Positions 17,102 through 54,964 of a DNA stretch of 55,987 nt are shown here, one piece after another. The position numbers were made by a program, and so were the translations under genes. The notes under the pieces are model-generated. The model worked only from the letters and a program-made list of their open reading frames with translations, made no database searches and was not told the origin of the DNA. Source of the stretch: Chitinivibrio alkaliphilus ACht1 (lineage in GTDB: Bacteria > Fibrobacterota > Chitinivibrionia > Chitinivibrionales > Chitinivibrionaceae); assembly GCF_000474745.1 (NCBI RefSeq), contig NZ_ASJR01000004.1, forward strand, positions 1 through 55,987. The letters run 5' to 3'. The first letter of the stretch is position 1; every line of letters starts with the position of its first letter.

Positions 17102-18140
17102 GATCCTGAGTATCCTTCTTCTCAGTGGCCTTGGGCTGTCTGTTCTTGCCTCTGGTCGTGGCGGTCGTGGTGATGCGCTTATGCGGGCTCCCATGGGGGC
17201 CTATGCAACGTCGCTTGGTGGTGCCGCAACGGCGAGACCTGCCTTCGGAGATGCGTGGTGGAATCCTGCATACTCCGCATCTCGACAGGCAAATCATCTC
17301 TCCGCTGGGGTTGCTCGAAAAAGTCTTGATCGGGGAGAACATTTTCTTGCCTACGATGGGGCTGTTTCCCAAAGCCCCTTTGGCTACTCAGTTCTATTTC
17401 GCCATAGTGGCTTTCTGGGGCTTGATTCCCTTCGTGATGATCAGGGAGAGATTCTTGAATCAGGGGATAATTACTCTCTCATGCTGATGGGTGGGCTCTC
17501 CTTTCGTGTGCAGGATGATCTTTTCCTGGGGGTGTCTACGGGGTGGCGGTATAATACTCTTCCCACAGATTTTCATGGAACAGAAATAGAACAGCGAACC
17601 TCCTCTGGCTTTGGCGGTATTTCTCTCTTTGCCATGTATACAGGGCTATCAAATCTTACCGTTTCCGGTGGTGTTCGTGAACTATTTCTCGATCAGTCCT
17701 GGAGCAGTGATGACGCAACGGCAATCTATTTTGCTATTGAAGATACGGCCCTCACTCCATTTACCGTATCTCTACAGCACGATCCTGTTTTTTCAGCAGA
17801 GGCGCTTTCTTTTTCCTACGATGTTGATGTCTATCTTTTTTCTCACGGGTTTCAGCGGCTTGATCATCCCTTTCTTATGGCTAATATGGGGGTAGAGTGG
17901 GGGGCAAATGAAGTAGTACAGCTTCGTGCTGGGGTGATGGATATTCTTCTGGATGGCTTTGTGTTGAACCCCGATGAAGAGGTGCTTTCTGAGAAATATC
18001 GCCCTCTCTTCACGGGTGGTTTTGGGGTGCAGACAGATTCCATAATCGATTTCTACTCCATGGTACTTAATTACTCTCTTCGGGGCAGCTCTGTGGGGGC
18101 GGGATTTGATCATGCCGTCGATTTTGTATTTCAGTTTTAA
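17073..18140 (+). CDS. PorV/PorQ-like outer-membrane beta-barrel protein
   Basis: A 355-residue outer-membrane protein. The TTG at 17073 is preferred as start because GGAGGGGAG lies seven bases before it and a signal peptide follows at once (KILSILLLSGLGLSVLASG). The mature N-terminus has the PorV/PorQ-type layout: a Gly/Ala-rich segment (GAYATSLGGAATARPAFGDAW) then WNPAYSA, where family members have NPA. The rest alternates as beta-strands and ends FVFQF. PorV proteins are FadL-fold barrels that escort T9SS cargo from the SprA pore to the cell surface. Adjacent genes encode a putative T9SS-type cargo upstream and another PorV-like protein downstream. Family assignment is by pattern and remains moderate. 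Confidence 0.7.
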   Translation: MEKSLLQKIKILSILLLSGLGLSVLASGRGGRGDALMRAPMGAYATSLGGAATARPAFGDAWWNPAYSASRQANHLSAGVARKSLDRGEHFLAYDGAVSQSPFGYSVLFRHSGFLGLDSLRDDQGEILESGDNYSLMLMGGLSFRVQDDLFLGVSTGWRYNTLPTDFHGTEIEQRTSSGFGGISLFAMYTGLSNLTVSGGVRELFLDQSWSSDDATAIYFAIEDTALTPFTVSLQHDPVFSAEALSFSYDVDVYLFSHGFQRLDHPFLMANMGVEWGANEVVQLRAGVMDILLDGFVLNPDEEVLSEKYRPLFTGGFGVQTDSIIDFYSMVLNYSLRGSSVGAGFDHAVDFVFQF

Positions 18141-18150
18141 AGGACTTGGT

Positions 18151-19137
18151 ATGTATCTCATATTTCTTCTTCTGTTTCTCTGTAGTGTGAGTGTGCATGG
18201 TCGGGACTATTCTTGGGCGGGGCGGTCTGGGTTTCAGTTTCTTCGTCGCCCCGTCAGTATCTCGTCTTCCGGTATGGGGGGTGGGGGAACGGCCGATGTT
18301 TCCGATTTTACACGATATATTAATCCAGCCCTTGCCGGTGATATGGAGGGGCCGGAGTTAAATATGGCCTTTGGAAACACAACCTTTCAAGATAATTTGC
18401 GTTTTAGTGGAGAAATGGCTTTTCCCTTTGGCAGTTACTTTTTTGGTATCACCATGCTGAATCATAGGATTGACGATATCTATTTGACTGGTGATCTTCA
18501 AAGCGAAGTTCCTACGGTTTCAACAGCGTGGCAGAGTTCTGACTTTTCTGTGACAGCAGGGGTTAATAGAAATCGCTATTTCCGATGGGCCGTATCTCTT
18601 GGCGGGGCATTCGAAGAGTTTGACGGGTATCGGGCGGGGGCCTTTGTGGCATCGGCTGGTACACAGGTTCGTTTGTTGGAAGAGCAGCTCCTCCTCGGAT
18701 TTTCCGCATTGAACCTTGGTCAGAGTACCTCATTTCTGCGCGACTCAACCGATTTGGGAGATGGTGAAGATCTTCCACGGACATTTCGTGCCGGTGCTGC
18801 GTGGCGTACCTCCCTGGGCGAAGTTCGTGTACAGCCCTTTGCCGATATTGTATATTATCATACCTATGATCCTGATGACGGTGTGCGAGAAAATATCTCT
18901 GACAGGGTTTTCTATCCCCTTGGGCTTGTGGTGACCCCGGTAGAATGGATGCGTTTGCGGGTTGGGAAAAATCTGGGCCATGAAACCGATCTTGTTGCCT
19001 TCGGGACAACCCTGCAAGCGGACTACCTCTCCGCTCGACTGGCCTTTGCAGTACAGGATTTTGACGGGGCTCGACATATGGAATGGAACCTCGGTGTCGG
19101 CTTTGATATTGGTGGGTTTGCGCAACAGGAAAAATAG
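18151..19137 (+). CDS. PorV/PorQ-like outer-membrane beta-barrel protein
   Basis: A 328-residue protein with a signal peptide (YLIFLLLFLCSVSVHG) from the ATG at 18151, which has AAGGAC six bases upstream. The mature start (FQFLRRPVSISSSGMGGGGTADVSD, then YINPALAG) fits the PorV/PorQ pattern of a conserved Gly-rich loop followed by an NPA-type motif, and closely parallels the gene before it. Ordered beta-hairpins follow (WAVSLGGAFEEF, LLLGFSALNLGQ, TFRAGAAWRTSLGEVRVQPFADIVYY). The two neighbouring barrels may be paralogues or a PorV/PorQ-type pair. It probably acts in the outer membrane together with the C-terminal-domain protein of the same gene cluster. Confidence 0.72.
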   Translation: MYLIFLLLFLCSVSVHGRDYSWAGRSGFQFLRRPVSISSSGMGGGGTADVSDFTRYINPALAGDMEGPELNMAFGNTTFQDNLRFSGEMAFPFGSYFFGITMLNHRIDDIYLTGDLQSEVPTVSTAWQSSDFSVTAGVNRNRYFRWAVSLGGAFEEFDGYRAGAFVASAGTQVRLLEEQLLLGFSALNLGQSTSFLRDSTDLGDGEDLPRTFRAGAAWRTSLGEVRVQPFADIVYYHTYDPDDGVRENISDRVFYPLGLVVTPVEWMRLRVGKNLGHETDLVAFGTTLQADYLSARLAFAVQDFDGARHMEWNLGVGFDIGGFAQQEK

Positions 19138-24232: not shown

Positions 24233-24315
24233 TAATTAGAACCTTTCGAGAGTTTCCTTTTACGAAGAAGCGCCCTTATATATTTTAGTCCTCTTTGTTT
24301 TTTACAGGAGCAGAA

Positions 24316-26466
24316 GTGACAAACCGTAAGCAGAATAGAACCGAGCAGAGAGAAAATAAACAACGACGGCTTGAAAAACAGAATCGCCCGGGAAAGCCAC
24401 AACCTTCAGTAACACCACCGAGCAATCCCATGAAAACCATGTTTGTCTGGGTACTTGTTGTTGTTCTTATGGTGGGCTTGCTTCGTGCTCTTGATCCTGC
24501 GGGAGATGGGGTTGTTGAGCTGAAATACAGCGAGTTTACCCGGCTTCTTGCTCTTTCAGATGGTAGTATGAAGGAAGCCGAGGATACCTCAGCGGTAATA
24601 GAAGAGGTGCAAGTAACTCTCAGCGGACTTCGTGCAAATCTCATGGGCTCTGTGAAAGATTCGCGTTATTTAGAAGAGGTTCTTGAGGAGGGGGAGCCCG
24701 TGGAATCACCAGAGTTTACGGTGGTCCTTCCCTTTGTAGATAGTCATATGTTATCCTCATGGGAGAATCGGGGGTTTTCTGTTTCCTTTAAAGAACAGGA
24801 AGTCTCATTTTGGGAAATTCTTCTGTCTGGATGGCCAGTACTGCTTCTTATTGCATTTTGGTTTTTTATGTTTCGCAATATGCAGGGCGGGCAAAAAGGA
24901 ATGTTTAGCTTTGGCAAATCACGGGCAAAGCTTCATAATAAAACTAAGACCAGTGTAACCTTTGATGATGTTTCCGGGGCTGAAGAGGCAAAGGATGAAC
25001 TTGCCGAAGTGGTTGATTTCCTAAAGAAACCGGAGAAATATCAACGAGTGGGTGGAAAAATACCGAAGGGGATTCTTCTACTTGGGCAGCCGGGGACGGG
25101 GAAAACGCTTCTTGCCAAAGCCGTGGCTGGTGAAGCTGATGTGGCTTTTTATTCTATCAGTGGTTCTGATTTTGTTGAAATGTTTGTTGGGGTGGGGGCA
25201 TCCCGCGTACGAAATCTTTTCGAAGAGGCAAAGAAGAACTCGCCCTCTATTGTCTTTATTGATGAAATTGATGCAGTGGGACGTCAACGTGGGGCCGGTC
25301 TTGGTGGTGGCCATGATGAGCGTGAGCAAACATTGAATCAGATGCTGGTGGAGATGGATGGGTTTGAACAAAACTCCGGTATTATTCTGATTGCCGCAAC
25401 AAACCGCCCCGATGTTCTTGATCCCGCCCTCTTGCGTCCGGGGCGATTTGATCGTCAAATTGTGGTTGATTCTCCTGATCTCCGTGGACGGCAAGGGATA
25501 CTTGCGGTGCACACAAAAAAAATTCCCCTAGGTGATGATGTATGCTTACAAACAATTGCGCGGGGTACTCCAGGGTTTTCCGGAGCAGATCTTGCAAACT
25601 TGGTAAATGAAGCAGCTCTTCTCGCCGCCCGCTTTGATCAAGCAAAGGTTACCATGCTGGATTTTGAAGAAGCGCGTGATAAAATACTCATGGGTATGGA
25701 GCGCAACAGTAAGATCTTAACGGAGTATGAGAAAAAGACCACGGCATATCACGAAGCAGGGCACGCCATATGTACCCTCCATTGTGCCCATGCAGACCCG
25801 CTCCATAAGGTGACAATTATTCCTCGTGGCCGTGCCTTGGGGGTAACCTTCTCCTTGCCCGATGAGGATAAGCACAGTTACAGTAGAGATTACATGCTTG
25901 ATCGTATTTGTGTTGCCATGGGTGGTCGTGTGGCGGAGTTATTAGTCTTTCAGCAGATGACAACGGGGGCGTCAAACGATATTAAGCAGGCTACGGATAT
26001 GGCCCGTAAGATGGTTTGTGATTACGGCATGAGCGAGTTGGGACCAGTGGCCTATGGGAAGAATGATGAACAGGTGTTTCTCGGTAAGGATATTTCGCGT
26101 CAGCGTGATTTTTCTGAAAGAACTGCTGAGCGCATCGATGAGATTATTCGAAAAATTATTGAAGAACAAGAAAAACGGGTCTATGATATCTTTGAGACGC
26201 ATCGTGATGAACTTGATTGTCTTGCCGAAGCCTTAATTGAACATGAACATTTGGATAAAGAAGAAATTGATATGGTGCTTCGCGGGGAAAAAATTACGGT
26301 GAGTAAGAAAAGTCGAATGGCACGTATTTTTTCATTGCGTAAACGTCGAGAGAGCGAGGCGGAAAAAGATCGTGATTCTGGGCAATATGCGTCGGAGGAA
26401 GATCGTAATAGCAAGGCGGAAGACATCTCTGATTCGGAAGACCTTCCTTCCGATGATTCAAAGTAG
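24316..26466 (+). CDS. ftsH: ATP-dependent zinc metalloprotease FtsH
   Basis: A 716-residue membrane AAA+ protease that degrades unassembled or damaged membrane and regulatory proteins. Order: basic N-terminal extension, first membrane helix ([15 protein letters not shown]), periplasmic domain of about 100 residues, second helix ([14 protein letters not shown]), AAA module with Walker A GQPGTGKT (near 257), Walker B VFIDEID and second region of homology ([19 protein letters not shown]), then the zinc site HEAGH (near 479). An acidic and Ser-rich tail ends the protein. The GTG at 24316 is preferred because GGAG lies six bases before it; a TTG 21 bases upstream is also in frame. It heads a run with folP, the SUMF1 stalk gene and sprA. 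Confidence 0.96.
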
Positions 26467-26481
26467 ATACGGGGAGAGTAC

Positions 26482-27294
26482 ATGGGCAATGAGCCGCGAC
26501 CATGGAATGTAATGGGAATTCTCAACGTTACGCCGGACTCCTTCTATGATGGTGGTACATATACGGACTGTGTTGCAGAGCGGGCGCAGCAAATGTATGA
26601 TGATGGTGCCGTTGTAATTGATGTTGGCGGCGAGTCGACGCGCCCCGGTTCATTGCCTGTATCTGTGCAGGAGGAGTTGGATCGTGTAGTGCCTGCTGTT
26701 GAAGAGATTTTGCGTACCGTTCCCGTACAAATTTCCGTTGATACAACAAAAGCAACTGTTGCCCGCGCAGCGCTTCGAGCGGGGGCGACCATGGTGAATG
26801 ATGTCAGCGGAGGTCGATTTGATCCTGATCTGCCCAGGGTTGCAGCTCAGGAAGATGCCTCTGTGGTTGTAATGCACAGCCGAAAAACCCCCCGCGATAT
26901 GCAGGAAGATCCCTCCTATAAATCAGTCTTAGAAGAGGTGGCGCAAGAGCTCCAAGAGGGAGTTACGCGGTATGTCTCTGCAGGGGTTGCTCACCACAAT
27001 ATTATTATTGATCCGGGAATCGGCTTTGCCAAAACGTATTTCGATAATATCGCCCTCTTAGGGGGGTTGTCATCACTTTCTCTGCCCTATCCTCTTTTAA
27101 TCGGTACGTCGCGGAAGTCATTTCTCGGAGCAATAACCGGCCGTGATGCTGCTGACCGTCTCGCCCCTTCTTTGGCAACGGTTGGACATGCCTATACACA
27201 GGGAGTTCGATGGTTTCGAGTGCATGATGTTGCAGAAACGGTTGATTATTTAAAGACCCTTGATTTTCTTACCACTGTGTCACCACAGGAGTAG
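26482..27294 (+). CDS. folP: Dihydropteroate synthase
   Basis: A 270-residue FolP, which condenses para-aminobenzoate with hydroxymethyl-dihydropterin pyrophosphate in folate synthesis. Family landmarks: MGILNVTPDSFYDGG, DVGGESTRPGS (flexible loops 1 and 2), SVDTTKATVARAA, MVNDVSGG, DPGIGFAK, LIGTSRKSFLG and the closing RVHDV. The usual MH-x-x-G-P is MHSRKTP here. It starts 15 bases after ftsH with GGGGAG upstream; an ftsH-folP pair is a common bacterial arrangement. Confidence 0.96.
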   Translation: MGNEPRPWNVMGILNVTPDSFYDGGTYTDCVAERAQQMYDDGAVVIDVGGESTRPGSLPVSVQEELDRVVPAVEEILRTVPVQISVDTTKATVARAALRAGATMVNDVSGGRFDPDLPRVAAQEDASVVVMHSRKTPRDMQEDPSYKSVLEEVAQELQEGVTRYVSAGVAHHNIIIDPGIGFAKTYFDNIALLGGLSSLSLPYPLLIGTSRKSFLGAITGRDAADRLAPSLATVGHAYTQGVRWFRVHDVAETVDYLKTLDFLTTVSPQE

Positions 27295-27300
27295 CTTGCT

Positions 27301-28587
27301 ATGGAAAATCTGCAGCGCCTGAGGCGTATACGAAGAGTATTTTTCTTGCTTCTTGCGCTATGTCTTATGCTACTTCTTTGGATGTATTTCCTGGGACAAG
27401 AGGCCTTTCGTCGTGAAGAGCAGGTCGCTGCCCATAGTCGTGCCCGTGCTGATAGCCTTGCCCGTGCTGATAGCCTAGCCCGTGCTGATAGCCTTGCCCG
27501 TGCCGATAGTCTTGCCCGTGCTGATAGCCTTGCCCGTGCTGATAGCCTAGCCCGTGCTGATAGCCTTGCCCGTGCTGATAGCCTAGCCCGTGCTGATAGC
27601 CTAGCCCGTGCCGATAGCCTTGCCCGTGCTGATAGCCTAGCCCGTGCTGATAGCCTTGCCCGTGCTGATAGCCTAGCCCGTGCTGATAGCCTTGCCCGTG
27701 CTGATAGCCTTGCCCGTGCTGATAGCCTTGCCCGTGCTGATAGCCTAGCCCGTGCTGATAGCCTTGCCCGTGCTGATAGCCTTGCCCGTGCTGATAGCCT
27801 TCAGGCTTTGCAGGAGCGGTGTAAAAAAGATACCCTCCCTCCATGGACCTATTTGCAGCCGGCGCCGGGACGATATGACGAGTCTCTCTCTGTGACCTTA
27901 CAGAGTGTAACCGAGGATGCTCGTATTGAGTGGCGTTTTTCCACAGACGATACATTTCGTTTATATGAAGGGGAGTCTATTGCAATTGCTGATTCCGTAA
28001 CCATTGTATATCGCGCTGAAGATCCATGTGGAAATGTTTTTTCACCCCGTGAAGGAACGTACGAAATTATCCCTCGAGAAAACCCTTGTCCAGAGGGAAT
28101 GGTGTATATCACTCATGGAGGGGACCCCTTTTGTATTGACAAATATGAATGGCCGAACCGCGCCGGTGAGCTTCCCGTAAGCAATGTTTCCTTAGGACAA
28201 GCACGTGATTCTTGTTTTTCCCGGGGGAAGCGTCTTCCCACAGCAGAGGAGTGGCAGAGGGCGTGTGAAGGCCCGTATGAATGGCAATACCCTTACGGTG
28301 ATACCTATGAGGTCTTTCCCTGTAATATTCGCAGTGAACGCCCGCGTCCTGCCGGGTATTTCCTTGGCTGCAGAACCTGGGATGGTGTCTATGATATGGT
28401 TGGAAACCTCGCTGAATGGACAAATACTCCCTCCGATGTCTCGCCCGGCTTCTTTGTTGTGCGTGGCGGTTTCTGGGAGAGTGGTCGCCGGGCCGATTGC
28501 AGGGTAAGTCGTCACAGTTATTACCCACAAAATCCACACAACCCCGTGGGGTTTCGCTGTGTTACTACTCCTGAGGATAGGAATTGA
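27301..28587 (+). CDS. Inner-membrane anchored (ADSLAR)19 stalk protein with SUMF1/FGE-like domain
   Basis: A 428-residue protein in four parts. Residues 1-10 are basic and cytoplasmic; about 11-32 form one membrane helix without a lipobox; 50-167 are nineteen perfect ADSLAR hexapeptides plus a final ADSL; about 172-260 form a chitobiase-type Ig domain (LQPAPGRYDESLSVTLQS). From about 262 to the end lies a formylglycine-generating-enzyme/SUMF1-type fold (PEGMVYITHGGDPFCIDKYE, RLPTAEEWQRACEG, YDMVGNLAEWT, VVRGGFW, VGFRCV). SUMF1-type domains also occur in the T9SS proteins PorK, GldK and GldJ. In each repeat Asp and the Arg four residues on can form salt bridges, so a straight single helix of about 17-18 nm is plausible. 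It begins six bases after folP; sprA follows at once. A role as a periplasm-spanning partner of SprA is inference. Confidence 0.85.
   Translation: MENLQRLRRIRRVFFLLLALCLMLLLWMYFLGQEAFRREEQVAAHSRARADSLARADSLARADSLARADSLARADSLARADSLARADSLARADSLARADSLARADSLARADSLARADSLARADSLARADSLARADSLARADSLARADSLARADSLARADSLARADSLQALQERCKKDTLPPWTYLQPAPGRYDESLSVTLQSVTEDARIEWRFSTDDTFRLYEGESIAIADSVTIVYRAEDPCGNVFSPREGTYEIIPRENPCPEGMVYITHGGDPFCIDKYEWPNRAGELPVSNVSLGQARDSCFSRGKRLPTAEEWQRACEGPYEWQYPYGDTYEVFPCNIRSERPRPAGYFLGCRTWDGVYDMVGNLAEWTNTPSDVSPGFFVVRGGFWESGRRADCRVSRHSYYPQNPHNPVGFRCVTTPEDRN
27448..27801 (+). repeat. 18-bp in-frame tandem repeat encoding ADSLAR
   Basis: Nineteen complete 18-bp units (27448-27789) and a final 12 bases of a twentieth. 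Units differ only at synonymous positions: CTT or CTA for Leu, GCT or GCC for Ala (units 4 and 10), AGC or AGT for Ser (unit 4). The protein repeat is invariant while silent differences persist, which points to selection on the peptide together with repeat copying. Gain or loss of units would keep the frame and change stalk length by six residues. Confidence 0.97.
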
Positions 28588-28589
28588 TT

Positions 28590-31500
28590 GTGGGAAAACT
28601 AACTATTTTGGTGATACTGGGTATGGCGTGCACTCTTGCGGGGGTTGAACGTATCCTCCATGATGTATATCCGGAAGAATTTACCCCACTCTATGGCCTA
28701 CGTCATCAAAGCTCACCTCTAATCACTCCGCCCCATGATCTTCTGGGAGCTCCCTCCTTTGGTACCGTGCGTGACACCACGGAGATTGATTTCGAAAATC
28801 GATCAATAACCTTTCGCGTATATGATACCTTGACAAATACCCCGCTTCGCACGGTCCATTATACGGAGCTTTCCCAATACCTCTCCGATATGATGATAGA
28901 GGGAATTGAAAATAGTTGGAATGAACATCTCTCCGAGCAAGGAGTGGAGGCGCGGCGGCGACGTGCCAGGGAAGAGGATGATCTTACCTTTGCTCTTCCC
29001 ACGGAGTTGCCCTTGTGGGCACGAAGAATACTGGGTGATGAGCCGCCACAGCTGAGTATTTCCGGTTCACAGTCACTGCGTGTTGGATATGAACGTACTG
29101 TTTCTGGTACTGTGGGAGATGAATCAAATTTTGATCGCAGCTCCAGTCCGGTCTTTGAACCCACGAGTGATTTTCGTATTCAGGGGTCGGTAGGGCGGCT
29201 TCTCGATATGGAGATTGTCCTTCGTGGAGAAACGGGAAGTGATGCCTTTTCAGATCTTGATGACCAGCTGAGTGAGATTCGCCTTCATTACCGAGAAAGT
29301 TATCCAGGGGAATTGGAAGATGACATTATTCAGGAAGTTGAGTTAGGGCGTACTAATTTCAATCTTCCCGGTTTGGGGTTAATCGGGTATCCCACAGGAG
29401 GAGAAGGGCTTTTTGGGGTAAAGGTGAAATCGAGAATTGGCCCCTTGGATCTCACCACTGTTTTAAGTACGGAGCAGACCGAAAGCAAGTCTGAACGTAT
29501 TGATTTGACGGCGGGGTCTCGACCGGTGATAATTAATGAAAAAGATTATGTTCAGAATCGTTTTTTCTTTGTTGATACCTTGTATCGTGAAATATACGCA
29601 CGGGAATTAACCGATGAAGCCCGGGTGAATGAATATCTGCAAGAGCAGGGGCTTACGTCCATTCCTACGGTTGAACGTCTTGATATATATAAAGAGATCC
29701 CCTTGAGCAGTAGTGATGGGGATACGCGGGATCATTTTATTGAGTATGCAGACCCTGATGGTCAGCTAAGTTTTGGCCGATTTCGCCGGCTCAATCCCAT
29801 GGATGAATATGAACTTGACAGAAATTATAATATTATTCGATTTAATAATAGCTTACGTTCTTCCAGCCGTGTTCTTATGTCTGTGGAGTTTAGTGATGGT
29901 CATGAGGGAACGGGCCAGCCAGATACAATACGGGCTGAAATAGAAGGGGAGGAGCGAACTATCCTCACGGGGTTACGTGTGTTGAAAAACCCTGAGAGCG
30001 ATACCTACATGGACAACGAAGAGTTTCCTCTCATGTTGCGTAATGTTTACAGTATTGGACGAGGTGATCCATCGGGGTTTGAATTTGATATTAAGCGTAT
30101 TAACGATGATGGTCGTTCAAGCCGGCGCAATAGTGATGACGACCTGTTCATTGATCTCATGGGGCTCACCAGTGATGGAATTATTGACCGAAATAACTCT
30201 ACGATCTTCGATCATGAGGCAGGGTTTGTTTTCATTCCGCCTTATATGAGTGATGAGATAGATGATGACCAACGTGTTGATCCTCTTCATCCATTTACCA
30301 ATAGAAATTTGGGAACCAACCGTAATGATGAACCAAATGTGAATGATGCAATTTATGATCCACGAGCACGGAACCTTGACAACCGCTTTGAAATACATAC
30401 CGCAACGAGTGAGCGCCGGACCCGATTTAGTCTCGGATTTGGTCTTATTGAAGGCTCTGAGCGAATCTGGCATGGTGCGGATACCTTGGTACCGAATCAA
30501 GATTACACCATTGATGCCTTTACGGGGGAAGTTGAATTGGTATCTAACCGTGCACGAAGCTATAGCCACGTTGATGTTTCATATCAGCAGGAAGCCCTGT
30601 TTCTTCTCGATAAAAAGACTCTTTTTGGGATAAACGGGTATCTTCAGTTTCCAAATCTGGGACGAAACTCGTATCTCTCCACATCCCTTCTTATGTTACG
30701 AATGAGCTCTGGAAGTGCGACTCCACGTATGGGAACCGAACCCTTTAATCGCCTTTCGTACGGTACAAGTTTGCGCCTTGACTTTCAGCCGGAGTGGATG
30801 ACCGCTGCGGTAAATACGATCCCTGGTATAGACACCGATGCCCGGTCTGGAGCGCGCTTTGATTTTGATATAGCCCGGAGTGTTGTGACCTCAAGCGTTG
30901 ACCGGTCAGATGGTGCTTTTGTTGATAATTTTTCAACCAGCGCACGAAGTTTTAACCTTTCAAGCAACCATTTTTCATGGTATCGTTCTTCCCCACAGTA
31001 TCATCCTACCCCCGAAGAGTATTTTTACAATCCTCCGGCATGGCATTTTTACTGGCATCGCCCCGTTGCAGGGGATAATCGTACGGAAAAACGTGATATT
31101 TACCCCAGTGATACTATTCGGCACCAAACAGAGTATGTGAGTACCCTCCGATTGACCGCACAACCCTTTCCGCCAGATCTGTCTCTTCAGGAAGGACTTG
31201 CTCAGGCAGATGAAGAAGTGACTCCCTGGGCGGGTATTATGCGTGGCTTGCAAGGGAGTCTTCGTGATCGGCAGGATGATCGGTACTTTGAGTTTCATCT
31301 TGGCCCGCATGAATCATCGGGAACCCTCTATGTAGATATGGGTGAGATCTCACAGGATCTCTCCCTTGATGGCGCACAGCCCAATAATCGGGAAGATTTT
31401 GAGAAGTTTTCCGGCACCTTGACTCCCGATGATGACCTTGGTCTCAACAGTCTTCCCGATAGCCTTGAATACTGGTGTTACCCTCGATGGGACGGGGACG

Positions 31501-34500
31501 GCTTTGTGTGGGATACCCTTCGCTATGGTGATGAGCGGTTAGGAAAATGGGCGGATGATCCTGCCCGCGACAATTTTCGTCTCTACGATTCGGATAATCG
31601 GAGCAATCGCATGTATGTGAACGGTACAGCGGGAAATATTGTGGTTAATGATCAGCCTGATCGGGAGAATTTTAACCAAGACGGCCGTTTTCTTGTGGGA
31701 AGCCAGTCTCAATACTTTCGTTACGAAATTAATCTTGATGATCTTGAAAACCATCCTTACACAGAACCGATTCGGCGCAGCGATGGATCTGAAACAGGGT
31801 GGTACCGGGTACGACTTCCCGTGAGTGTTATTGCCGAGCCGGATTCTATTGTCGGAGAGCCGGCATGGAGTGATATTACACAGGTGCGGATGCTCTGGAA
31901 AGATTTTGCTGATTCCTATGCAGACACAGCGTGGAAGACCCTTGAGTTTGAAGGGATGCAGTTTGTCGGAAATCAATGGACAGAGTATCTTGATACAGCC
32001 TTTGTTGCAGATGTTGATGAGGTTGAGGTAGGAAAGGTGATTGCCAGGACCCTTGATTCACGACGGACAGAACGATACGAAGAGCGAATTCCCGTAGATA
32101 TTGATAGTACTGGCGGAGAAGCGGTTACGCACTATACATTACAAGTTGATTTTTCATCTATTGAGCCAGCCTTTACTTCTGATGATCAAGATTTCCACGG
32201 CGTTGAGCGCCGTTTCTCTCAGCAGGGAAGTCTCGACTTTTCCCCCTACTCAGATATCGAATTTTATCTCTGTGAGGAACGGTTGCCAGGAAGTCTCTCT
32301 TCTCTGGAAATAAACCCTGATAATGATGTGTGGTTTTCCCTGCGTTTAGGAAACAACGACTCTTCATATTATGAGTTTCGAACACGGGATCTTCCTTCAG
32401 GAGGGGAATGGAACTGGGAACAATTTCAGGTATCTCTCGATGCGTTAACACAATTGAAACTAGATTGGTTTAATACGTACGGTTCACGGTCCGGTGGTAT
32501 TGATACGACCATTACAACCGATCAAGGGGAATTGCGCGTGTACAGCACTAATAATAACTACCCCTCGCTTAGCTCAATTCGATGGATTGGGGTTGGGGTG
32601 GTAAATCAGGATGCGCAGGAGTATGACGGGGTTATAAAGCTCACTGATTTTAAAAGCACGGGTATTAGTAACTACAAAGGGGTGGCCATGCGCTCCTCTC
32701 TTCGTCTGGATTGGGCTGACTTTATCGATAATACGATGAGTTTTGATTACCGTGATGCTACTTTTCGCAGTATGTCTGACAATGTGAATATGGCCAATAA
32801 TGCCACCATGAGCAGTGGTATTAGCGGGGAAATTCGTCTTGATCGTTTCTTAGGTGATCGCCACGGATTTCGCGTGCCTGTTGGGGGGAGTGTAAATGCA
32901 CGGTTGGAACGTCCCGTACAACGAGCAAACAGTGATATAGAGTTGCGTCAAGATGGATCATATGATGGTTTTCGCGATATGGGACGTGATTTTGGGGCTA
33001 TTCTTATTGGGCGTGATTCGAGCGAAGCAACGAATGTGACCCCCTCTGAAGAGTATCAAAATATCAGTCGTGACTACACTTTTTATACAGGGTATGAAAA
33101 AAATCGTACCTCCGATGGGGTCTTAGGGCGGCTTATTGCTGACAGAATTAGCGTATCTTACGACTATTCCTATCGTGAAACAATAAACCGTCATGGACGC
33201 ATTCCTCTGAATGAGCTTATGGATTATTCCCATTGGGGAATCGATTACTTCCATGCTGATATCTATGGGCAAACACGGCATAATTCCGCCCTATCTTACG
33301 ATATGACCCCCGCTCGGCCTATTCGTGACCGTGCGTCGGCGCGGCCCTTTGCTGATCTCAATATCTCCCTCTTACGGGGGCTTCGCTTTAACCTGCTTCC
33401 CGAACAGATGAATCTTGATCTTATCGATTTTAGTTTTACCAGGACAGAGGACTATAGCTCCCTTGACGAGGTAGAGCAGAGTTCCTATGAGTGGGAGCCG
33501 GAGCGCCGCCTTCGTATGCAGCATGGCTTGTCCTTTAACTATCGTCCCATTGATCCTCTTACTCAGTTTCGCTACTCTCTCTCAGTGGATCGTAACTTTG
33601 ACCGTTTTTTTAATCGGTGGGACGGCAGTTCATTCAGTGAGTTTTGGAATGAAGATGTTTTGTTTTCCCGTCAGCCCGAATGGCGAGACTATCACTTTCT
33701 TTTTTCGGAGAACTCCCGCCGCCAAAATGCTTCCATGAGTTTGAGTCCTGACATTGGTCGGTGGATAGATCTTTCAACGGATATCACAACCTCATACAGT
33801 CACTCCCTCGATCTTGCCTCCGATAGTACCGATTTAGATTCACGTGTATCAAATGAGTTTCGTGTTTCCAGCGGGCTTCATCTTCGCCGTCTCTTTCGGA
33901 CACTTTCAGATCATATCGAAGGCAATCGGGAAGAGTCTCAAGGCAGTGTGGCAGGTAATATTGCCGATTTCTTTGATCTTGTAAATCTTTCAACAGTAAA
34001 CCTTACCTACAGTGCGTCCATGGAGCTGCGTAATACGCGCATGACCCCGGCGTATTTTGATACATATTTGGGTGGAGACTATGTTGATTATTTTGCCTAC
34101 ACCCTTGGTGTTCATGGGCGTTCTCTTCGTGATATTATGACCGGTGATATGGATGATGAATCGTACTTTGGTGGAGTGCGGCATCGTAACGATTGGTATG
34201 ATGGGGTTCAACGTAATACGGGAGATCGAAGAAATACAACACGTCGAGTTGAAGGGCGGACAAGTTTTGATATTCCCGCCTTAATTGATCTTCGTATTAA
34301 CACTCTTTCCTTGCAGTGGAATCAGACCTATACCATAACCCCGGAGCTCACCCGTTTTGATACCACAACGACGTGGCCCGATTTTCGCATTGGAGCAAGT
34401 ACCTCCTTTCTGGAAAATCTTGAGAATATTCGCCAAAATTTTCGAAGTTTTCGTTTGCGGACAGGGTATAATTTTAATAAGCGGCTTCGTAAGTATTCTA

Positions 34501-35096
34501 CCTACTGGATTGATGATCGTCCGGGCAGTGAATATTTGGAAGACCATACCTTCCGCTATGGCTTTTCTCCTCTTATTAATATTGATGCGACCCTGCGTCA
34601 GCCCGGTATAAACGTTAAATACACCCTGAATAGAACCTACGATACCACCCTCACCATGTCCCATACCCTAGAGCCTGACCCCGATGTTCCCGGGCAACTA
34701 CAGCTTGTATCAGAGTTTGATGGTGGTCGAAAGACCATATCTACGGTGCATTCCTGGGAAGCAACGTATCGAACGCGGGGCGAGTCGGGAAGGTCTGTGC
34801 AATTTTTTGAAGGTCGCCCCGTGGATGTTGTGGGAGACGTAACCTATCGTCTCAATATTTCTATTGATAAGAAAGAGCATCGTCGGCACCGTGCCGATAA
34901 TGACGGCAACCGTTCAACGGAAGATATGGTAGAGTATGATGAACGAACCTTTACCCTACGTCCACGGGTGGAGTATACCTTCACCGATAAGGTTGATTTT
35001 TTGTTTTCCTATGAGATGCAGCGGCGCATTACCGGTGAAAGTCAAAATGTCCGTGATACGGATCGTCTCTTTGCGGAAGTAACTGTGCGTTTTTAA
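28590..35096 (+). CDS. sprA: SprA/Sov-type outer-membrane translocon of type IX secretion
   Basis: A 2168-residue secreted protein (signal peptide GKLTILVILGMACTLAG) matching SprA in length and order of landmarks. These include LPGLGLIGYPTGGEGLFGVKVKS near residue 255 then STEQTESKS; YTIDAFTGEVELVSNRA near 640 followed by KKTLFGINGYLQF; GTLYVDMGEISQDLSLDG near 912; then SQYFRYEINLDD and the strand-rich second half. It ends in a strand with terminal Phe (LFAEVTVRF). In Bacteroidota SprA is a very large single-chain barrel through which T9SS cargo crosses the outer membrane, gated by PorV and a plug. GTG 28590 has AGGAA upstream; TTG 28584, overlapping the previous stop, is an alternative. Other T9SS core genes (porK/L/M/N) are not in the window under recognisable form. 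Confidence 0.9.
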   Translation: MGKLTILVILGMACTLAGVERILHDVYPEEFTPLYGLRHQSSPLITPPHDLLGAPSFGTVRDTTEIDFENRSITFRVYDTLTNTPLRTVHYTELSQYLSDMMIEGIENSWNEHLSEQGVEARRRRAREEDDLTFALPTELPLWARRILGDEPPQLSISGSQSLRVGYERTVSGTVGDESNFDRSSSPVFEPTSDFRIQGSVGRLLDMEIVLRGETGSDAFSDLDDQLSEIRLHYRESYPGELEDDIIQEVELGRTNFNLPGLGLIGYPTGGEGLFGVKVKSRIGPLDLTTVLSTEQTESKSERIDLTAGSRPVIINEKDYVQNRFFFVDTLYREIYARELTDEARVNEYLQEQGLTSIPTVERLDIYKEIPLSSSDGDTRDHFIEYADPDGQLSFGRFRRLNPMDEYELDRNYNIIRFNNSLRSSSRVLMSVEFSDGHEGTGQPDTIRAEIEGEERTILTGLRVLKNPESDTYMDNEEFPLMLRNVYSIGRGDPSGFEFDIKRINDDGRSSRRNSDDDLFIDLMGLTSDGIIDRNNSTIFDHEAGFVFIPPYMSDEIDDDQRVDPLHPFTNRNLGTNRNDEPNVNDAIYDPRARNLDNRFEIHTATSERRTRFSLGFGLIEGSERIWHGADTLVPNQDYTIDAFTGEVELVSNRARSYSHVDVSYQQEALFLLDKKTLFGINGYLQFPNLGRNSYLSTSLLMLRMSSGSATPRMGTEPFNRLSYGTSLRLDFQPEWMTAAVNTIPGIDTDARSGARFDFDIARSVVTSSVDRSDGAFVDNFSTSARSFNLSSNHFSWYRSSPQYHPTPEEYFYNPPAWHFYWHRPVAGDNRTEKRDIYPSDTIRHQTEYVSTLRLTAQPFPPDLSLQEGLAQADEEVTPWAGIMRGLQGSLRDRQDDRYFEFHLGPHESSGTLYVDMGEISQDLSLDGAQPNNREDFEKFSGTLTPDDDLGLNSLPDSLEYWCYPRWDGDGFVWDTLRYGDERLGKWADDPARDNFRLYDSDNRSNRMYVNGTAGNIVVNDQPDRENFNQDGRFLVGSQSQYFRYEINLDDLENHPYTEPIRRSDGSETGWYRVRLPVSVIAEPDSIVGEPAWSDITQVRMLWKDFADSYADTAWKTLEFEGMQFVGNQWTEYLDTAFVADVDEVEVGKVIARTLDSRRTERYEERIPVDIDSTGGEAVTHYTLQVDFSSIEPAFTSDDQDFHGVERRFSQQGSLDFSPYSDIEFYLCEERLPGSLSSLEINPDNDVWFSLRLGNNDSSYYEFRTRDLPSGGEWNWEQFQVSLDALTQLKLDWFNTYGSRSGGIDTTITTDQGELRVYSTNNNYPSLSSIRWIGVGVVNQDAQEYDGVIKLTDFKSTGISNYKGVAMRSSLRLDWADFIDNTMSFDYRDATFRSMSDNVNMANNATMSSGISGEIRLDRFLGDRHGFRVPVGGSVNARLERPVQRANSDIELRQDGSYDGFRDMGRDFGAILIGRDSSEATNVTPSEEYQNISRDYTFYTGYEKNRTSDGVLGRLIADRISVSYDYSYRETINRHGRIPLNELMDYSHWGIDYFHADIYGQTRHNSALSYDMTPARPIRDRASARPFADLNISLLRGLRFNLLPEQMNLDLIDFSFTRTEDYSSLDEVEQSSYEWEPERRLRMQHGLSFNYRPIDPLTQFRYSLSVDRNFDRFFNRWDGSSFSEFWNEDVLFSRQPEWRDYHFLFSENSRRQNASMSLSPDIGRWIDLSTDITTSYSHSLDLASDSTDLDSRVSNEFRVSSGLHLRRLFRTLSDHIEGNREESQGSVAGNIADFFDLVNLSTVNLTYSASMELRNTRMTPAYFDTYLGGDYVDYFAYTLGVHGRSLRDIMTGDMDDESYFGGVRHRNDWYDGVQRNTGDRRNTTRRVEGRTSFDIPALIDLRINTLSLQWNQTYTITPELTRFDTTTTWPDFRIGASTSFLENLENIRQNFRSFRLRTGYNFNKRLRKYSTYWIDDRPGSEYLEDHTFRYGFSPLINIDATLRQPGINVKYTLNRTYDTTLTMSHTLEPDPDVPGQLQLVSEFDGGRKTISTVHSWEATYRTRGESGRSVQFFEGRPVDVVGDVTYRLNISIDKKEHRRHRADNDGNRSTEDMVEYDERTFTLRPRVEYTFTDKVDFLFSYEMQRRITGESQNVRDTDRLFAEVTVRF

Positions 35097-49327: not shown

Positions 49328-52300
49328 ATGAAAACGGTACAACAAACATGGGTCTTGCTGCTGCTTCTCTGTTTTGTCGGGGGAGTACATGCGGTAAGTA
49401 TTGATGATTTGAATCTTGCAATTATATGGAATCAGAATACTACCATGGATAAGGCTCACACGCCGTATCGTTTGTGGCGGGAATTGGTTAATGAAGGGTC
49501 TGAAGAAGATCGTCAAGGGTGGCGCGAGGCTCCTGAAATTGGTAAGGCGCAGTTAAAGTTTTATCTCGCTGCTCTTTCTAATGGAGCTGTATCAGTTGAT
49601 CCCGATAATTCTCTTGATGCGGCAGGGGTGCCCGAGGAGCTTTCCTATGGGGATGGTTTCTCCTATGAAGGAAATGATGGTGTTCTTACTAATCTTGCTG
49701 TATACAATAATTCCCATTTCTATTCAAACGATTTTGACCTTGATCGCCTCTACAGTGATTTTGGGGGTGAACGTCCCGATGCTGTTATTTATATAAACGC
49801 GGGGGCGTCCTGGTCAGAGCCCGGGGAAGATAATGGGTTGTTTGATTTGCTCTTAGATGCTGCGGAGGAAGGTATTGGTGTATTAACTGTGGGTGATGGC
49901 TCTGTTGGCGATGCGCGGAATATTGATCCATCACGGGAGACTTTCCCCGTTATGGGGGTTCAAAACTGGTATCGTTTAAAAGCATTTTCCGATGCAACTA
50001 TCCGTGAATTTAATTTCCTTGAACAAACTGATTTTACGGTTCATCCGGATTTTGAAACACCCGATGTGGTACATCTCCGTCTTGATTCTGTAGAAGGCGA
50101 AGAGCGATATCGTATTGCCTTGGGAGAGTATCAGTCGGCTCTTCCCGCAGATGAGGACATTATTTATGAGGCCCGTATGGTTCAGCGTCCAGGTGGTGAT
50201 GGTGATCAAGGACACTGGGATGATTCGTATTATGATCCCGGAGATGGGAAGTGGTTTGAGTATAATACCATGGAGGTGCTCCGCAGAAACGATAACATCT
50301 ACAGCGAAGATGGAAACGATGTTATTATTAATCATGCCAATGGGGAGTGGTCTATTTATGCAAAGGCTGTTGATGTAATTGAGCAGGATCTCTATGCCCC
50401 TGAAATGAGTGCGGGGGTGTATAACAACCATGATGTTATTTTGGGCTATGATACTCTCCCAGGAAATGAACGTATTTATATAGTTGATGAAACAAGTTGG
50501 AGCTCCGTCGCTGATTTTGGTGCTGAGTTGTGGATTGATGGAGAGATTTTGACAAGATACGGCGAGGCGTTGCCGGGGCTGGAATCACGAAGTGATCTAG
50601 AACTATATGGAGAGTTTACCACTGTCGGTGGACGTGATGTGTTCCGTTTTACCCGAGATTATACAGTAGTGAGTCCTTATACGGATCGGGAGATATTGGT
50701 AATTGCCGAAGGCCGTCAAATTGCTGGTTTTTCTCCGGGTGATCCCGGTGAAGACCTAATATGGTATAATACGGATAATCCCAACGAACCAACTAACTAC
50801 TTCGGTAGTTATGCCTCCGGTGGATATAAAGATTTGCAAATAGTGCTATTCCCCGATGAGTATGATGATAATGCAACCGGGCAAATTTTCAACAATGTAT
50901 TTCCTTCCCTTGCAGGTGAATCAACGCTTGAATTCCGTGATTGGGAACATACGCAAGATCGTACGGGGCGTCTTCGTGCGGCCGCTGATATTTGGGCATT
51001 TAACGAAAACCTTGATTTACGAAGCTTTGAAGAGCTTTTTGATCAAGATGCAGAGTTTGCTAAAGATGCATACTATGTAAATTATCTTGGGAAGCAAGTT
51101 GCGGGGAGAGAGGGATACCCCCATTTTGTAACTCCTCCCGGCTCAACCGATGAGGAACCGCTGTATCCGCTGCCAAGTGATGTCGATCCTGTGCAGTTTG
51201 AGTTTTCCTATCCCGCATCCGAGAAACGCCACGATCTGCATGGCTACGATGAAGATGGCAAGCTGTACCATGCGGTGTCAGTGGTGCAAACAGGGCAGCG
51301 TCGTCTCGGGATGCTCGGGTTTCAACCAACCTACTTGAAAGATGTTTCTACCGTAATGGGTATGCTTGAAGATATTACGCGGTGGATTGCCGTGGATGAT
51401 TGGCGCTATCCTGATCCGCAAATAAATTTTGTCTATGAAGGAGCAACAGAGCCAGCAGATGGGCGGCTTGTCTATACTGATGTGGATGAAATAGAGCTTC
51501 AGGTCGATTTTACGGTGAAGGGGCAGGACCTCCGTGATTCTCGATATGATGCGATCCTTAAGGTGACCTATAATGGAGAAACCGAGGAGTTGAGTATCGA
51601 TAACTATACGCGTAATGCTGGTGAGGAGGTTGATATTCACACCTTTAATCTTCGTGAAGCCTTTGATGTTGATCCCACGGAAAATGATGCTCAGAATATT
51701 AGCCTGAATGCGTATATTGAACCAACATCCCCGCGGTTTATTCGTGGAAAATCTGAAGGATCGCTGACCCTGCGTAAGCTTGCGCCTCCTTCTTTTGATG
51801 CTGATGATGATCAGTTTGAGGAGAGTATTGAGGTTCGTATCTCTCAGACCGGTGATGTTGATGGTAATGCCGTGAGTGATGAGGTAACCATTGAAGTGAC
51901 AGATCCCAAGGTGGACGCAGGGCTTTCGGAATTTGCGTATACCTTAAATCAAGGGGGGACTGTTCGCGCCTTTGCCTCTGCAGATCGGTATCTCAACTCT
52001 GAACGGAATGAAAGTAGTTCCTTTACGCAAGAAGCGACCATGCCTGCCCCGCAGGCTGATTCCACAGATGGTACCCTCCTCTTTGCGAATGATACGGTGA
52101 CTCTTTTTGTTGATCTGAGCAGTCTTGACAGTGAACCTGACTATGAAATAGAGTATACTGTTACCTATGACGGGACTACTGTAATTTCCACTCGTGGAGA
52201 CCGTAATGAATCAGTGGAGATTCTTCTGGAAGGCTTTATTGACCGTGAAACCCGCGCAGTGACAGACTTTACGGTGACGGCGAAAACGATTGGTATAGAT

Positions 52301-54964
52301 GATGTTTGGAATGATAGCCGTGAAGTAACCTTTGATTACTCGGTACGAAAGTTGAGCACCGATCCATCACAACCAGTGACCATTGATTTTTGGGAAGATG
52401 CACACACCCTTGAAGTGGCTGCGGTTTTCGATGATGTTCGATTTGATGAAGAGATTGATGGAGCCTATGCCCATATCCGTTTAGGAGAAGACGAAAATAG
52501 CACTGAGAGAACCAAAGAGAGCATTGCTCACTTTGATTTTGATGAAACAGAGTCTTTTACGTTTGTGTTTTGGGCAGAACATCCTCGATATATTCATTCT
52601 GATATCGTGGATAATAACGAGTTCGTGGTGGAACAGCGACAGCTGCCAGATCCTGTTGCGGCCCCCTCTGATGATGAGGCCAATAACCGTGATGCTTATC
52701 ACTTCTATGATCCTCACGATATACGCATATCCCTTGAGCGTGATGCGAATTATGATGATGTGGCCCAAGGTGATTTTGTAATAGATATCAGGGGGGATAT
52801 TGATGGTGAATTGCTGGAAAAATCGGCAAACTCCCTTAATATTACCATGGATGTTATCAATGATCTCATAGATATGGGGCGGGGAACCCGTTCCCTTGAT
52901 TTCAGAGGACGAACAAATCCTGCAGAAGGGGTTGATTACTGGATCTCCAGTGATGAGCAAAACTATTCATATAATTTCAGGACAGTTGATCTTGATATTG
53001 CTGTTGTGGATGGAGATGAAGAGTCCGATGAACTGGGTATTGTCTTTTCCGCCTCGGATCCTGTAAACAATCGTCAGCTTACTGATGGACGTATCTTTTA
53101 TACCTATGAAGGTCACGACATGTCCCCCAATGTTCTTGATACTTCCGATGCATCAACCTATTCCGGCAGTGCTGACCATGGAGAGGAAATAACAATCCCC
53201 AACGGTGTAATCCTTACTGCCATAGGCTTTCGCAACGGGTATGTGCCCAATAGCCCCGATGAGGGAACAGATATTTTCATACGGGACGCAACACTTCTTA
53301 TTTCGCCGGAGGACAGAACCGCCTTTGGGGATGCCCTTGAGGTTCGTGTTCAATCAAATCTCAGTCCCATTCACTATGAGGTGTATGGTGAAACAGGGCA
53401 GATTGACGGAAACAGTGGTACGATTATTCTGGACAGGGGAGATCCCGCACCCGGTGATAGCGTGAATGTAAATTTCCGTGCCTGGGTTGAGGGGGATGAT
53501 GTAACAGAGGGTGTTGAGGAGGAGCGTCTCTATTATCGGCGCATGTTGCCTGATGTTGGCATTACTCCTTCTTCGGGAGATTATCCTGGAGATATTGAAG
53601 TCACCATGACAAACAGTGCCCCTGCGCAGGAACGAGATATCTTTTACTCCTTTGACGGTACACCTGACCGGGATGATGACCTGTATGAAGACCCCATTAC
53701 AGTTACTCCGGATATTGATGTTTTTGGTCGGGCCTTTGTAAATCCCGATGTGGTTGAATCAAACGGAGCTGGCGGATGGTTACCTTCCAACACAGAAGAA
53801 CGTAATTATCGACGTGTCACGACGGGTGTTGATGAAGGCAGTGCCTATTTTGACCGTTCTTCATCACAGGATGATCTGGATGCTGACGGAATCATAGATC
53901 TGGCAATTGTTGAGCTCGCAGATCGCTGGGATGACTTGGCCTTACCGGACAGTGTTGCCGCGGTTTTTCCTGGTACCTCAGATATTCTTGTTGTGAGTGA
54001 TGGTATTACGTGGGAAGACTCTGATGATATGGATAATAAGCGAATCCATGTCTCTCTGCCCTTTGAAGAACGTAATACCGGATTTCCCACGGATGAGTAT
54101 ATTACCTTATATGGTGCTCAGTACACAGGGAATGTTCGTGTTGCCGACTCAGTGGCTCCGGTTATTTCTCGAGCGTGGTATCTATCAGGAGATTTTGATC
54201 TTGATGGAAATAGAACTGCTGATACTCTCAAGGTACAGTTTTCAGAAGAAGTTGTGTCCTTAACGGAAGGTGCGCCCCGTGAAGATAATCTCTTTTTCTT
54301 TGGATCACTGGAAAATCCCTACACGGGAGATATTACCTTCCATGATATGAGCAACGATACGGTGTGGTTTATTGTGGAAGACCTTTCTGCCCGCATGTAT
54401 CCATACCAAGGAGATTCTCTCTGGATTCGGACTTCCTCTCCAGTTGATATTATGGATGGTGCTGGAAATGTACAGGCCACAGAATTAAACCGTCGTGTTG
54501 AAATGGATGTAGAACGTCTTCGAATTAATATTCGTATGGATGCATTTTGGATCCTTGATAACCCAGATTTTTCTGGGGTGTCATCCTATACTGATATTGG
54601 AACCCCCGTTGCGGGGAGTGATATTTCCGTGTCACTTGGTGGGGCGATTATTATCGATCCTCGTGTCCCCTTTACAGAAGAGCAAGTCCTTTCTAGTGAT
54701 TTTGATGCGCAGGTAACAATCCTAGATGAGGTGGGGAATACAGTTGTTTCTACGTCCGGTAAAGATGACGATCAGTCAAATATAGAAGTTGTTCCGCTTA
54801 TGTATGATGGGCGTTATGTGATTGCCATTGCATGGGATGGAACAAATCGTAATGGTCGTCAAGTGCATGCCCGTTCCTATAAAGTACATGCGCGGACGGT
54901 ATGGCCCGGTATCGATGGCTCCATACGAGTGAACGGAGTTATTCCTGTAATGAAAGATTATTAA
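49328..54964 (+). CDS. Giant secreted surface protein with chitobiase-type, DxDxDG and FlgD-like domains
   Basis: An 1878-residue exported protein with a signal peptide (TWVLLLLLCFVGGVHA). The first 700 residues form a domain of unknown type, with a DUF4159/GATase-like feel (VIYINAGASW, GIGVLTVGDGS, RRLGMLGFQPTYL). Beta-sandwich modules follow from about 700 to 1400. A chitobiase/CHB_HEX_C-type module lies near 1408-1475 (PSSGDYPGDIEVTMT, FYSFDGTPD). Calcium-type loops DDLDADGIIDLA (near 1514) and GDFDLDGNRTADTLKV (near 1621) each precede strand-rich units, and a FlgD-like Ig end follows (about 1798-1878, WDGTNRNGRQV). It is very acidic. Likely a cell-surface or matrix protein, plausibly T9SS cargo, although the extreme C-terminus is not a textbook sorting domain. 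It is a single-gene unit closed by a strong terminator. Confidence 0.8.
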   Translation: MKTVQQTWVLLLLLCFVGGVHAVSIDDLNLAIIWNQNTTMDKAHTPYRLWRELVNEGSEEDRQGWREAPEIGKAQLKFYLAALSNGAVSVDPDNSLDAAGVPEELSYGDGFSYEGNDGVLTNLAVYNNSHFYSNDFDLDRLYSDFGGERPDAVIYINAGASWSEPGEDNGLFDLLLDAAEEGIGVLTVGDGSVGDARNIDPSRETFPVMGVQNWYRLKAFSDATIREFNFLEQTDFTVHPDFETPDVVHLRLDSVEGEERYRIALGEYQSALPADEDIIYEARMVQRPGGDGDQGHWDDSYYDPGDGKWFEYNTMEVLRRNDNIYSEDGNDVIINHANGEWSIYAKAVDVIEQDLYAPEMSAGVYNNHDVILGYDTLPGNERIYIVDETSWSSVADFGAELWIDGEILTRYGEALPGLESRSDLELYGEFTTVGGRDVFRFTRDYTVVSPYTDREILVIAEGRQIAGFSPGDPGEDLIWYNTDNPNEPTNYFGSYASGGYKDLQIVLFPDEYDDNATGQIFNNVFPSLAGESTLEFRDWEHTQDRTGRLRAAADIWAFNENLDLRSFEELFDQDAEFAKDAYYVNYLGKQVAGREGYPHFVTPPGSTDEEPLYPLPSDVDPVQFEFSYPASEKRHDLHGYDEDGKLYHAVSVVQTGQRRLGMLGFQPTYLKDVSTVMGMLEDITRWIAVDDWRYPDPQINFVYEGATEPADGRLVYTDVDEIELQVDFTVKGQDLRDSRYDAILKVTYNGETEELSIDNYTRNAGEEVDIHTFNLREAFDVDPTENDAQNISLNAYIEPTSPRFIRGKSEGSLTLRKLAPPSFDADDDQFEESIEVRISQTGDVDGNAVSDEVTIEVTDPKVDAGLSEFAYTLNQGGTVRAFASADRYLNSERNESSSFTQEATMPAPQADSTDGTLLFANDTVTLFVDLSSLDSEPDYEIEYTVTYDGTTVISTRGDRNESVEILLEGFIDRETRAVTDFTVTAKTIGIDDVWNDSREVTFDYSVRKLSTDPSQPVTIDFWEDAHTLEVAAVFDDVRFDEEIDGAYAHIRLGEDENSTERTKESIAHFDFDETESFTFVFWAEHPRYIHSDIVDNNEFVVEQRQLPDPVAAPSDDEANNRDAYHFYDPHDIRISLERDANYDDVAQGDFVIDIRGDIDGELLEKSANSLNITMDVINDLIDMGRGTRSLDFRGRTNPAEGVDYWISSDEQNYSYNFRTVDLDIAVVDGDEESDELGIVFSASDPVNNRQLTDGRIFYTYEGHDMSPNVLDTSDASTYSGSADHGEEITIPNGVILTAIGFRNGYVPNSPDEGTDIFIRDATLLISPEDRTAFGDALEVRVQSNLSPIHYEVYGETGQIDGNSGTIILDRGDPAPGDSVNVNFRAWVEGDDVTEGVEEERLYYRRMLPDVGITPSSGDYPGDIEVTMTNSAPAQERDIFYSFDGTPDRDDDLYEDPITVTPDIDVFGRAFVNPDVVESNGAGGWLPSNTEERNYRRVTTGVDEGSAYFDRSSSQDDLDADGIIDLAIVELADRWDDLALPDSVAAVFPGTSDILVVSDGITWEDSDDMDNKRIHVSLPFEERNTGFPTDEYITLYGAQYTGNVRVADSVAPVISRAWYLSGDFDLDGNRTADTLKVQFSEEVVSLTEGAPREDNLFFFGSLENPYTGDITFHDMSNDTVWFIVEDLSARMYPYQGDSLWIRTSSPVDIMDGAGNVQATELNRRVEMDVERLRINIRMDAFWILDNPDFSGVSSYTDIGTPVAGSDISVSLGGAIIIDPRVPFTEEQVLSSDFDAQVTILDEVGNTVVSTSGKDDDQSNIEVVPLMYDGRYVIAIAWDGTNRNGRQVHARSYKVHARTVWPGIDGSIRVNGVIPVMKDY

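Follow-up and report, generated by a model that had tools for sequence, protein, structure and literature searches.

Among the type IX secretion systems (T9SS) of Bacteroidota, the proteins PorK, GldK and GldJ share an FGE-like fold, which in PorK serves as a docking hub (PMC12421860). They lack the catalytic cysteines of FGE, use the fold for docking and are associated with SprA/Sov (PMC12421860, PMC12635249), and they are outer-membrane lipoproteins forming a ring or a track with PorN/GldN. The motor arm, PorM/GldM, is anchored in the inner membrane and reaches across the periplasm toward the translocon, and in Flavobacterium the motor is needed for the release of cargo from the translocon (PMC10994853). 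A survey of 2016, whose models included Gld proteins, placed T9SS in Bacteroidetes only (PMC4793230). Ignavibacterium and Melioribacter are reported to have only SprA, PorV and Plug of the system (PMC11705866), and for the cellulases of Fibrobacter succinogenes a T9SS export was proposed, peptides of the CTD region being absent from the mature proteins (PMC6851124).

We analysed a stretch of 55,987 nucleotides of Chitinivibrio alkaliphilus ACht1 (the window), where sprA stands directly behind the gene of a protein with a SUMF1/FGE-fold domain on a long stalk (Table 1). According to our analysis this stalk protein is a real, conserved, phylum-specific and membrane-tethered pseudo-FGE, and it is not a PorK. 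It resembles PorK, GldK and GldJ in having the FGE fold, probably without the catalytic cysteines, and in the association of its gene with sprA; unlike them, it appears to have a membrane helix instead of the lipid anchor and a shorter SUMF1 domain that belongs to a separate clade, in a phylum where GldN was found in none of the 22 genomes tested. With PorM/GldM it shares a predicted reach from an inner-membrane anchor across the periplasm toward the translocon, but it is a single helix with no motor partner identified, and no GldM was found in the 61 Fibrobacterota genomes.

Table 1. Features of the stalk-sprA locus, in positions of the window
Feature	Positions	Strand	Basis or content
ftsH (AAA protease), upstream in the conserved ftsH-folP-stalk string	24295..26466	+	TIGR01241, 829 bits; synteny in relatives
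folP (dihydropteroate synthase)	26482..27294	+	TIGR01496, 307 bits
Stalk protein P0001	27301..28587	+	inner-membrane anchor and repeat stalk, then beta domain and SUMF1/FGE-fold domain
Inner-membrane helix (predicted) at residues 13-31, with the N-terminus inside	27337..27393	+	hydropathy over 44 orthologues
Helical stalk (residues 33-176); would measure about 21 nm as an unbroken helix	27397..27828	+	AlphaFold2
Tandem array of 20.1 copies of an 18-bp unit, encoding the ADSLAR repeats	27441..27801	+	Tandem Repeats Finder, 94% match
Small beta domain, chitobiase-C-terminal-like (weak)	27829..28068	+	strands modelled at residues 183-256 (AlphaFold2)
Domain of SUMF1/FGE fold at residues 263-421, without the catalytic Cys pair	28087..28563	+	PF03781
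sprA, T9SS outer-membrane translocon, 2170 aa	28584..35096	+	TIGR04189, 353 bits (cut-off 200); PF14349, E 3.9e-14

Architecture of the stalk protein

The coordinates of the stalk gene, which codes for 428 residues, were confirmed. A preliminary description of this DNA had read in it an inner-membrane helix, an ADSLAR stalk and a SUMF1/FGE domain, encoded before SprA, and with this architecture the open reading frames, Tandem Repeats Finder and Pfam agree. The hydrophobic helix is single and is preceded by a positive N-terminus; it is strongly hydrophobic, and no consensus lipobox is seen by eye.

AlphaFold2 models the protein alone with a mean pLDDT of 87.4 and makes the stalk nearly continuous, from one helix at residues 2-127 and another at 134-176, with pLDDT mostly at 80-93 and a drop to near 51-56 at residues 121-140. 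The periplasm-long helix of the preliminary description is not supported as a property of the family: in a proline-rich relative (L063) the linker models as disordered, with pLDDT below 50, and a rigid helix as a family trait was rejected on this ground. Since, in addition, the linkers of orthologues vary from about 58 to 216 aa (by an automatic measure, which misplaced the helix of one locus, L061), the repeat helix is, as far as the models go, a feature of C. alkaliphilus and some of its relatives.

The domain that follows, described before as chitobiase-type, keeps its beta character in the model; in sequence, PF13290 (CHB_HEX_C_1, chitobiase C-terminal) matches weakly 3 of the 44 orthologues, with a best E of 0.022. 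Elsewhere in the window, at 49328-54964 (+), a 1878-aa protein is encoded that neither Pfam nor NCBIfam matches at the thresholds applied and that, by eye, is secreted and contains a chitobiase-C-terminal-like stretch.

The last domain is matched by PF03781 at residues 288-421 (E 1.4e-16), and a Foldseek search of the model brings CalU17, ToxD and FGE as the best PDB matches, the E values of 1e-6 to 1e-5 against FGE structures being those of an FGE fold. The alignment of 44 orthologues has eight invariant cysteines, and positions 313 and 421 carry cysteine together in 40 of the proteins and other residues together in the remaining 4; these positions would fit structural disulfides. A free cysteine for a GldK-style disulfide attachment was considered and set aside, as Cys 313 and Cys 421 appear and vanish together and a paired disulfide is likelier. 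No orthologue (0 of 44) has a cysteine at residues 391-399, which we take, from the human FGE motif, to be the site of the FGE catalytic pair; the profile alignment to FGE spans the earlier structural cysteines and stops short of this region. Because the orthologues are devoid of cysteine at the site of the FGE catalytic pair, P0001 is probably a pseudoenzyme, and the same observation speaks against an active formylglycine-generating or related oxidase in the periplasm, which the FGE fold and the retained structural cysteines might otherwise suggest and which we hold to be extremely improbable.

Distribution and descent

Orthologues with the same layout are present in 57 of 61 Fibrobacterota genomes (E below 1e-40). 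In a scan of named genomes all full-length relatives among the matches listed belong to Fibrobacterota, and the listed matches from outside the phylum extend over the SUMF1 part and hardly beyond it. A 670-aa protein of an uncultured proteobacterium (L159:2089-4101) has two or more SUMF1 stretches and reaches E 2.4e-93 against the model of the stalk domain.

In a tree of 56 SUMF1 domains, with rows hand-chosen from the hits of a SUMF1 domain search, the stalk proteins group with Myxococcota-type domains, their nearest SUMF1 relatives there, which differ from them in lacking, among the matches listed, most of the remaining layout. Three GldK, named by their place in a gldK-gldL-gldM-gldN string, group with other Fibrobacterota and Bacteroidota domains. 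A clade of stalk proteins plus GldK is rejected (AU test, p=0.0043), the starred split carrying 100/97. In direct comparison the PorK chains align to the stalk domain over an 18-residue motif only (E about 3e-5), whereas SUMF2 reaches 2.6e-15, and PorK is absent from the best 50 fold matches of P0001.

The stalk protein might be regarded as a divergent GldK/PorK, that is, as an outer-membrane ring protein whose lipid anchor was swapped for a long inner-membrane tether. An FGE fold stands beside SprA, no GldK passes the cut-off in the phylum, and PorK, GldK and GldJ do share this fold (PMC12421860). Against the tree and the short PorK match, we consider such a protein highly unlikely; descent from PorK/GldK, which the preliminary description had invited, is rejected by the SUMF1 tree together with the AU test.

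The stalk-sprA pair and its neighbourhood

If sprA starts at TTG 28584, it overlaps the stalk gene by 4 nt; GTG 28590 is, by our own reading, an alternative start. The set counted for the window's order comprises G000-G039, of which 36 are scorable (G011 is split at contig ends, and G015, G016 and G031 are without a clear orthologue), and in 34 of them sprA comes immediately after the stalk gene on the same strand, so the adjacency is not a matter of chance. The two genes are apart, both being retained, in G002 and G004. Of the 17 loci compared, most have a gap of about zero between the two genes; one has a longer gap, and one gave no clear spacing. Beyond the order an orthologue is present, and in the loci read it lies away from sprA. 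For the order, the survey of sprA neighbours thus bears out the immediate succession first noticed in this window. What is supported is a module of FGE fold with an inner-membrane tether, its gene tightly paired with sprA across the order, in a phylum where no PorK/GldK passed the cut-off and neither GldM nor GldN was found. The draft genome G034 carries the junction twice (L141, which is G034:C95, and G034:C37), by duplication or mixed assembly. Region 593-647 of the SprA model also matches a gene pair in the order (L149:1974-4902, G000:C1) that looks by eye like FlgK and FlgL, which suggests a shared short beta motif.

Linkage to ftsH and folP had been regarded as unusual for T9SS genes, and this we reverse: ftsH-folP are the older neighbours of the stalk gene and sprA is the later one. 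In most relatives folP adjoins the stalk gene or is separated from it by one gene, cdaA; Fibrobacteraceae and one further family have the order ftsH-folP-cdaA-stalk, with sprA elsewhere. In the window's order cdaA is missing from the gene string, the string itself being what was examined, and the stalk gene remains. The next gene after sprA encodes RNase E/G in 14 of the 18 genomes of the order examined (three of these genes were checked), so that the block mixes unrelated housekeeping genes. As the sprA-RNase E/G adjacency is found outside the order too, the present block seems to have arisen by the joining of two older strings; a junction in an ancestor of the order would be the simplest account. 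Its long retention is consistent with co-function, and also with a shared operon of housekeeping genes. Some 9 kb before sprA the window has a further frame (18106-19137, +) with a weak match to the PorV/PorQ family (NF033709, E 1.1e-7, below cut-off).

Secretion genes of Fibrobacterota and a possible role of the stalk protein

SprA passes the curated cut-off (TIGR04189) in 58 of 61 Fibrobacterota genomes, the PorV family in 60 of 61, and CTD cargo (TIGR04183) is present in all 61, with 25 matches in the genome of the window. A PorU-like sortase matches in each of the 22 Fibrobacterota tested (E 5.2e-57 or better), several genomes, that of the window included, falling below the 420-bit cut-off. 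GldM was found in none of 61 genomes and GldN in none of the 22 Fibrobacterota tested, with models that do match three Bacteroidota controls, G061-G063 (E 1e-98 to 1e-167 for GldM and 1e-58 to 1e-82 for GldN). For GldK (cut-off 350 bits) and GldL no genome of the 61 passes, GldL giving three weak matches with a best E of 7.4e-5, and both counts are to be read by the cut-off alone, without a Bacteroidota control; in G061-G063 the frames beside gldM/gldN resemble gldK and gldL in their position and in how their sequences begin, a likeness that stands outside the model searches. In Fibrobacterota the known T9SS proteins of motor and ring seem to be missing, and divergent replacements for any of GldK, GldL, GldM and GldN are possible. 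In a limited literature search we found no description of a T9SS with translocon and without motor in Fibrobacterota. It is partly precedented by Ignavibacterium and Melioribacter, which are likewise reported with SprA and PorV and without other T9SS proteins (PMC11705866), but Fibrobacterota have, in addition, many cargo proteins with a CTD and the PorU-like sortase. One genome, G052 (98% complete), has SprA, PorV, PorU and CTD matches and no stalk orthologue, its best match to the stalk alignment being E 1.2e-9 where two congeners give 5e-106 and 9e-109; a gap in its assembly is possible.

We propose that the stalk protein is a Fibrobacterota-specific periplasmic adaptor, a proposal whose chances of being right we see as about even. 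By computation, the hydrophobic helix anchors it in the inner membrane, and the low-complexity linker carries the beta domain and the catalytically dead, multi-cysteine SUMF1/FGE domain away from the membrane; this last domain may bind a partner on the periplasm's outer side, in the manner of the FGE-like fold of PorK. In the window's order one partner could be the T9SS translocon or something serving it; this link is the least certain step, and a role in T9SS stays tentative, its chances falling slightly short of even. A bolder version, in which Fibrobacterota run a T9SS without the GldKLMN energy chain and part of the bridging or docking falls to an inner-membrane-tethered pseudoenzyme that has the FGE fold and a separate origin, appears unlikely to us.

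The adaptor draws on the near-zero pairing with sprA in the order, on the spread of the layout through the phylum, on an FGE fold, by sequence and structure, with no Cys in the catalytic-pair region, on the missing GldM and GldN and the GldK and GldL counts, and on the precedent of PorK as a docking hub (PMC12421860). It has against it the older linkage to ftsH-folP-(cdaA) instead of sprA, the housekeeping mixture of the block, the two genomes with the genes apart, the T9SS set of G052 and the distance of the SUMF1 domain from GldK. The stalk protein may instead be a general envelope protein of the ftsH-folP-cdaA string, for instance an outward-facing partner in the slot that cdaR takes in other bacteria; a single rearrangement in an ancestor would then have brought sprA next to it, and a shared promoter would have held the two together. 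The families with ftsH-folP-cdaA-stalk and a distant sprA, the sprA-RNase E/G adjacency inside and outside the order, and G052 all favour such a protein; yet the stalk gene stays where cdaA is gone from the string, and its close spacing to sprA persists at an identity of about 40-48%. Identity with CdaR was dropped, no YbbR/CdaR match appearing among the first 25 families listed for the 44 orthologues. Taken as a whole, the housekeeping account is an appreciable possibility that remains clearly below even.

If the motor and ring are truly missing in Fibrobacterota, their T9SS would have to use another energy source, or energisation would not be universal among these systems. The neighbour of sprA would, in that case, be a concrete first gene to test.
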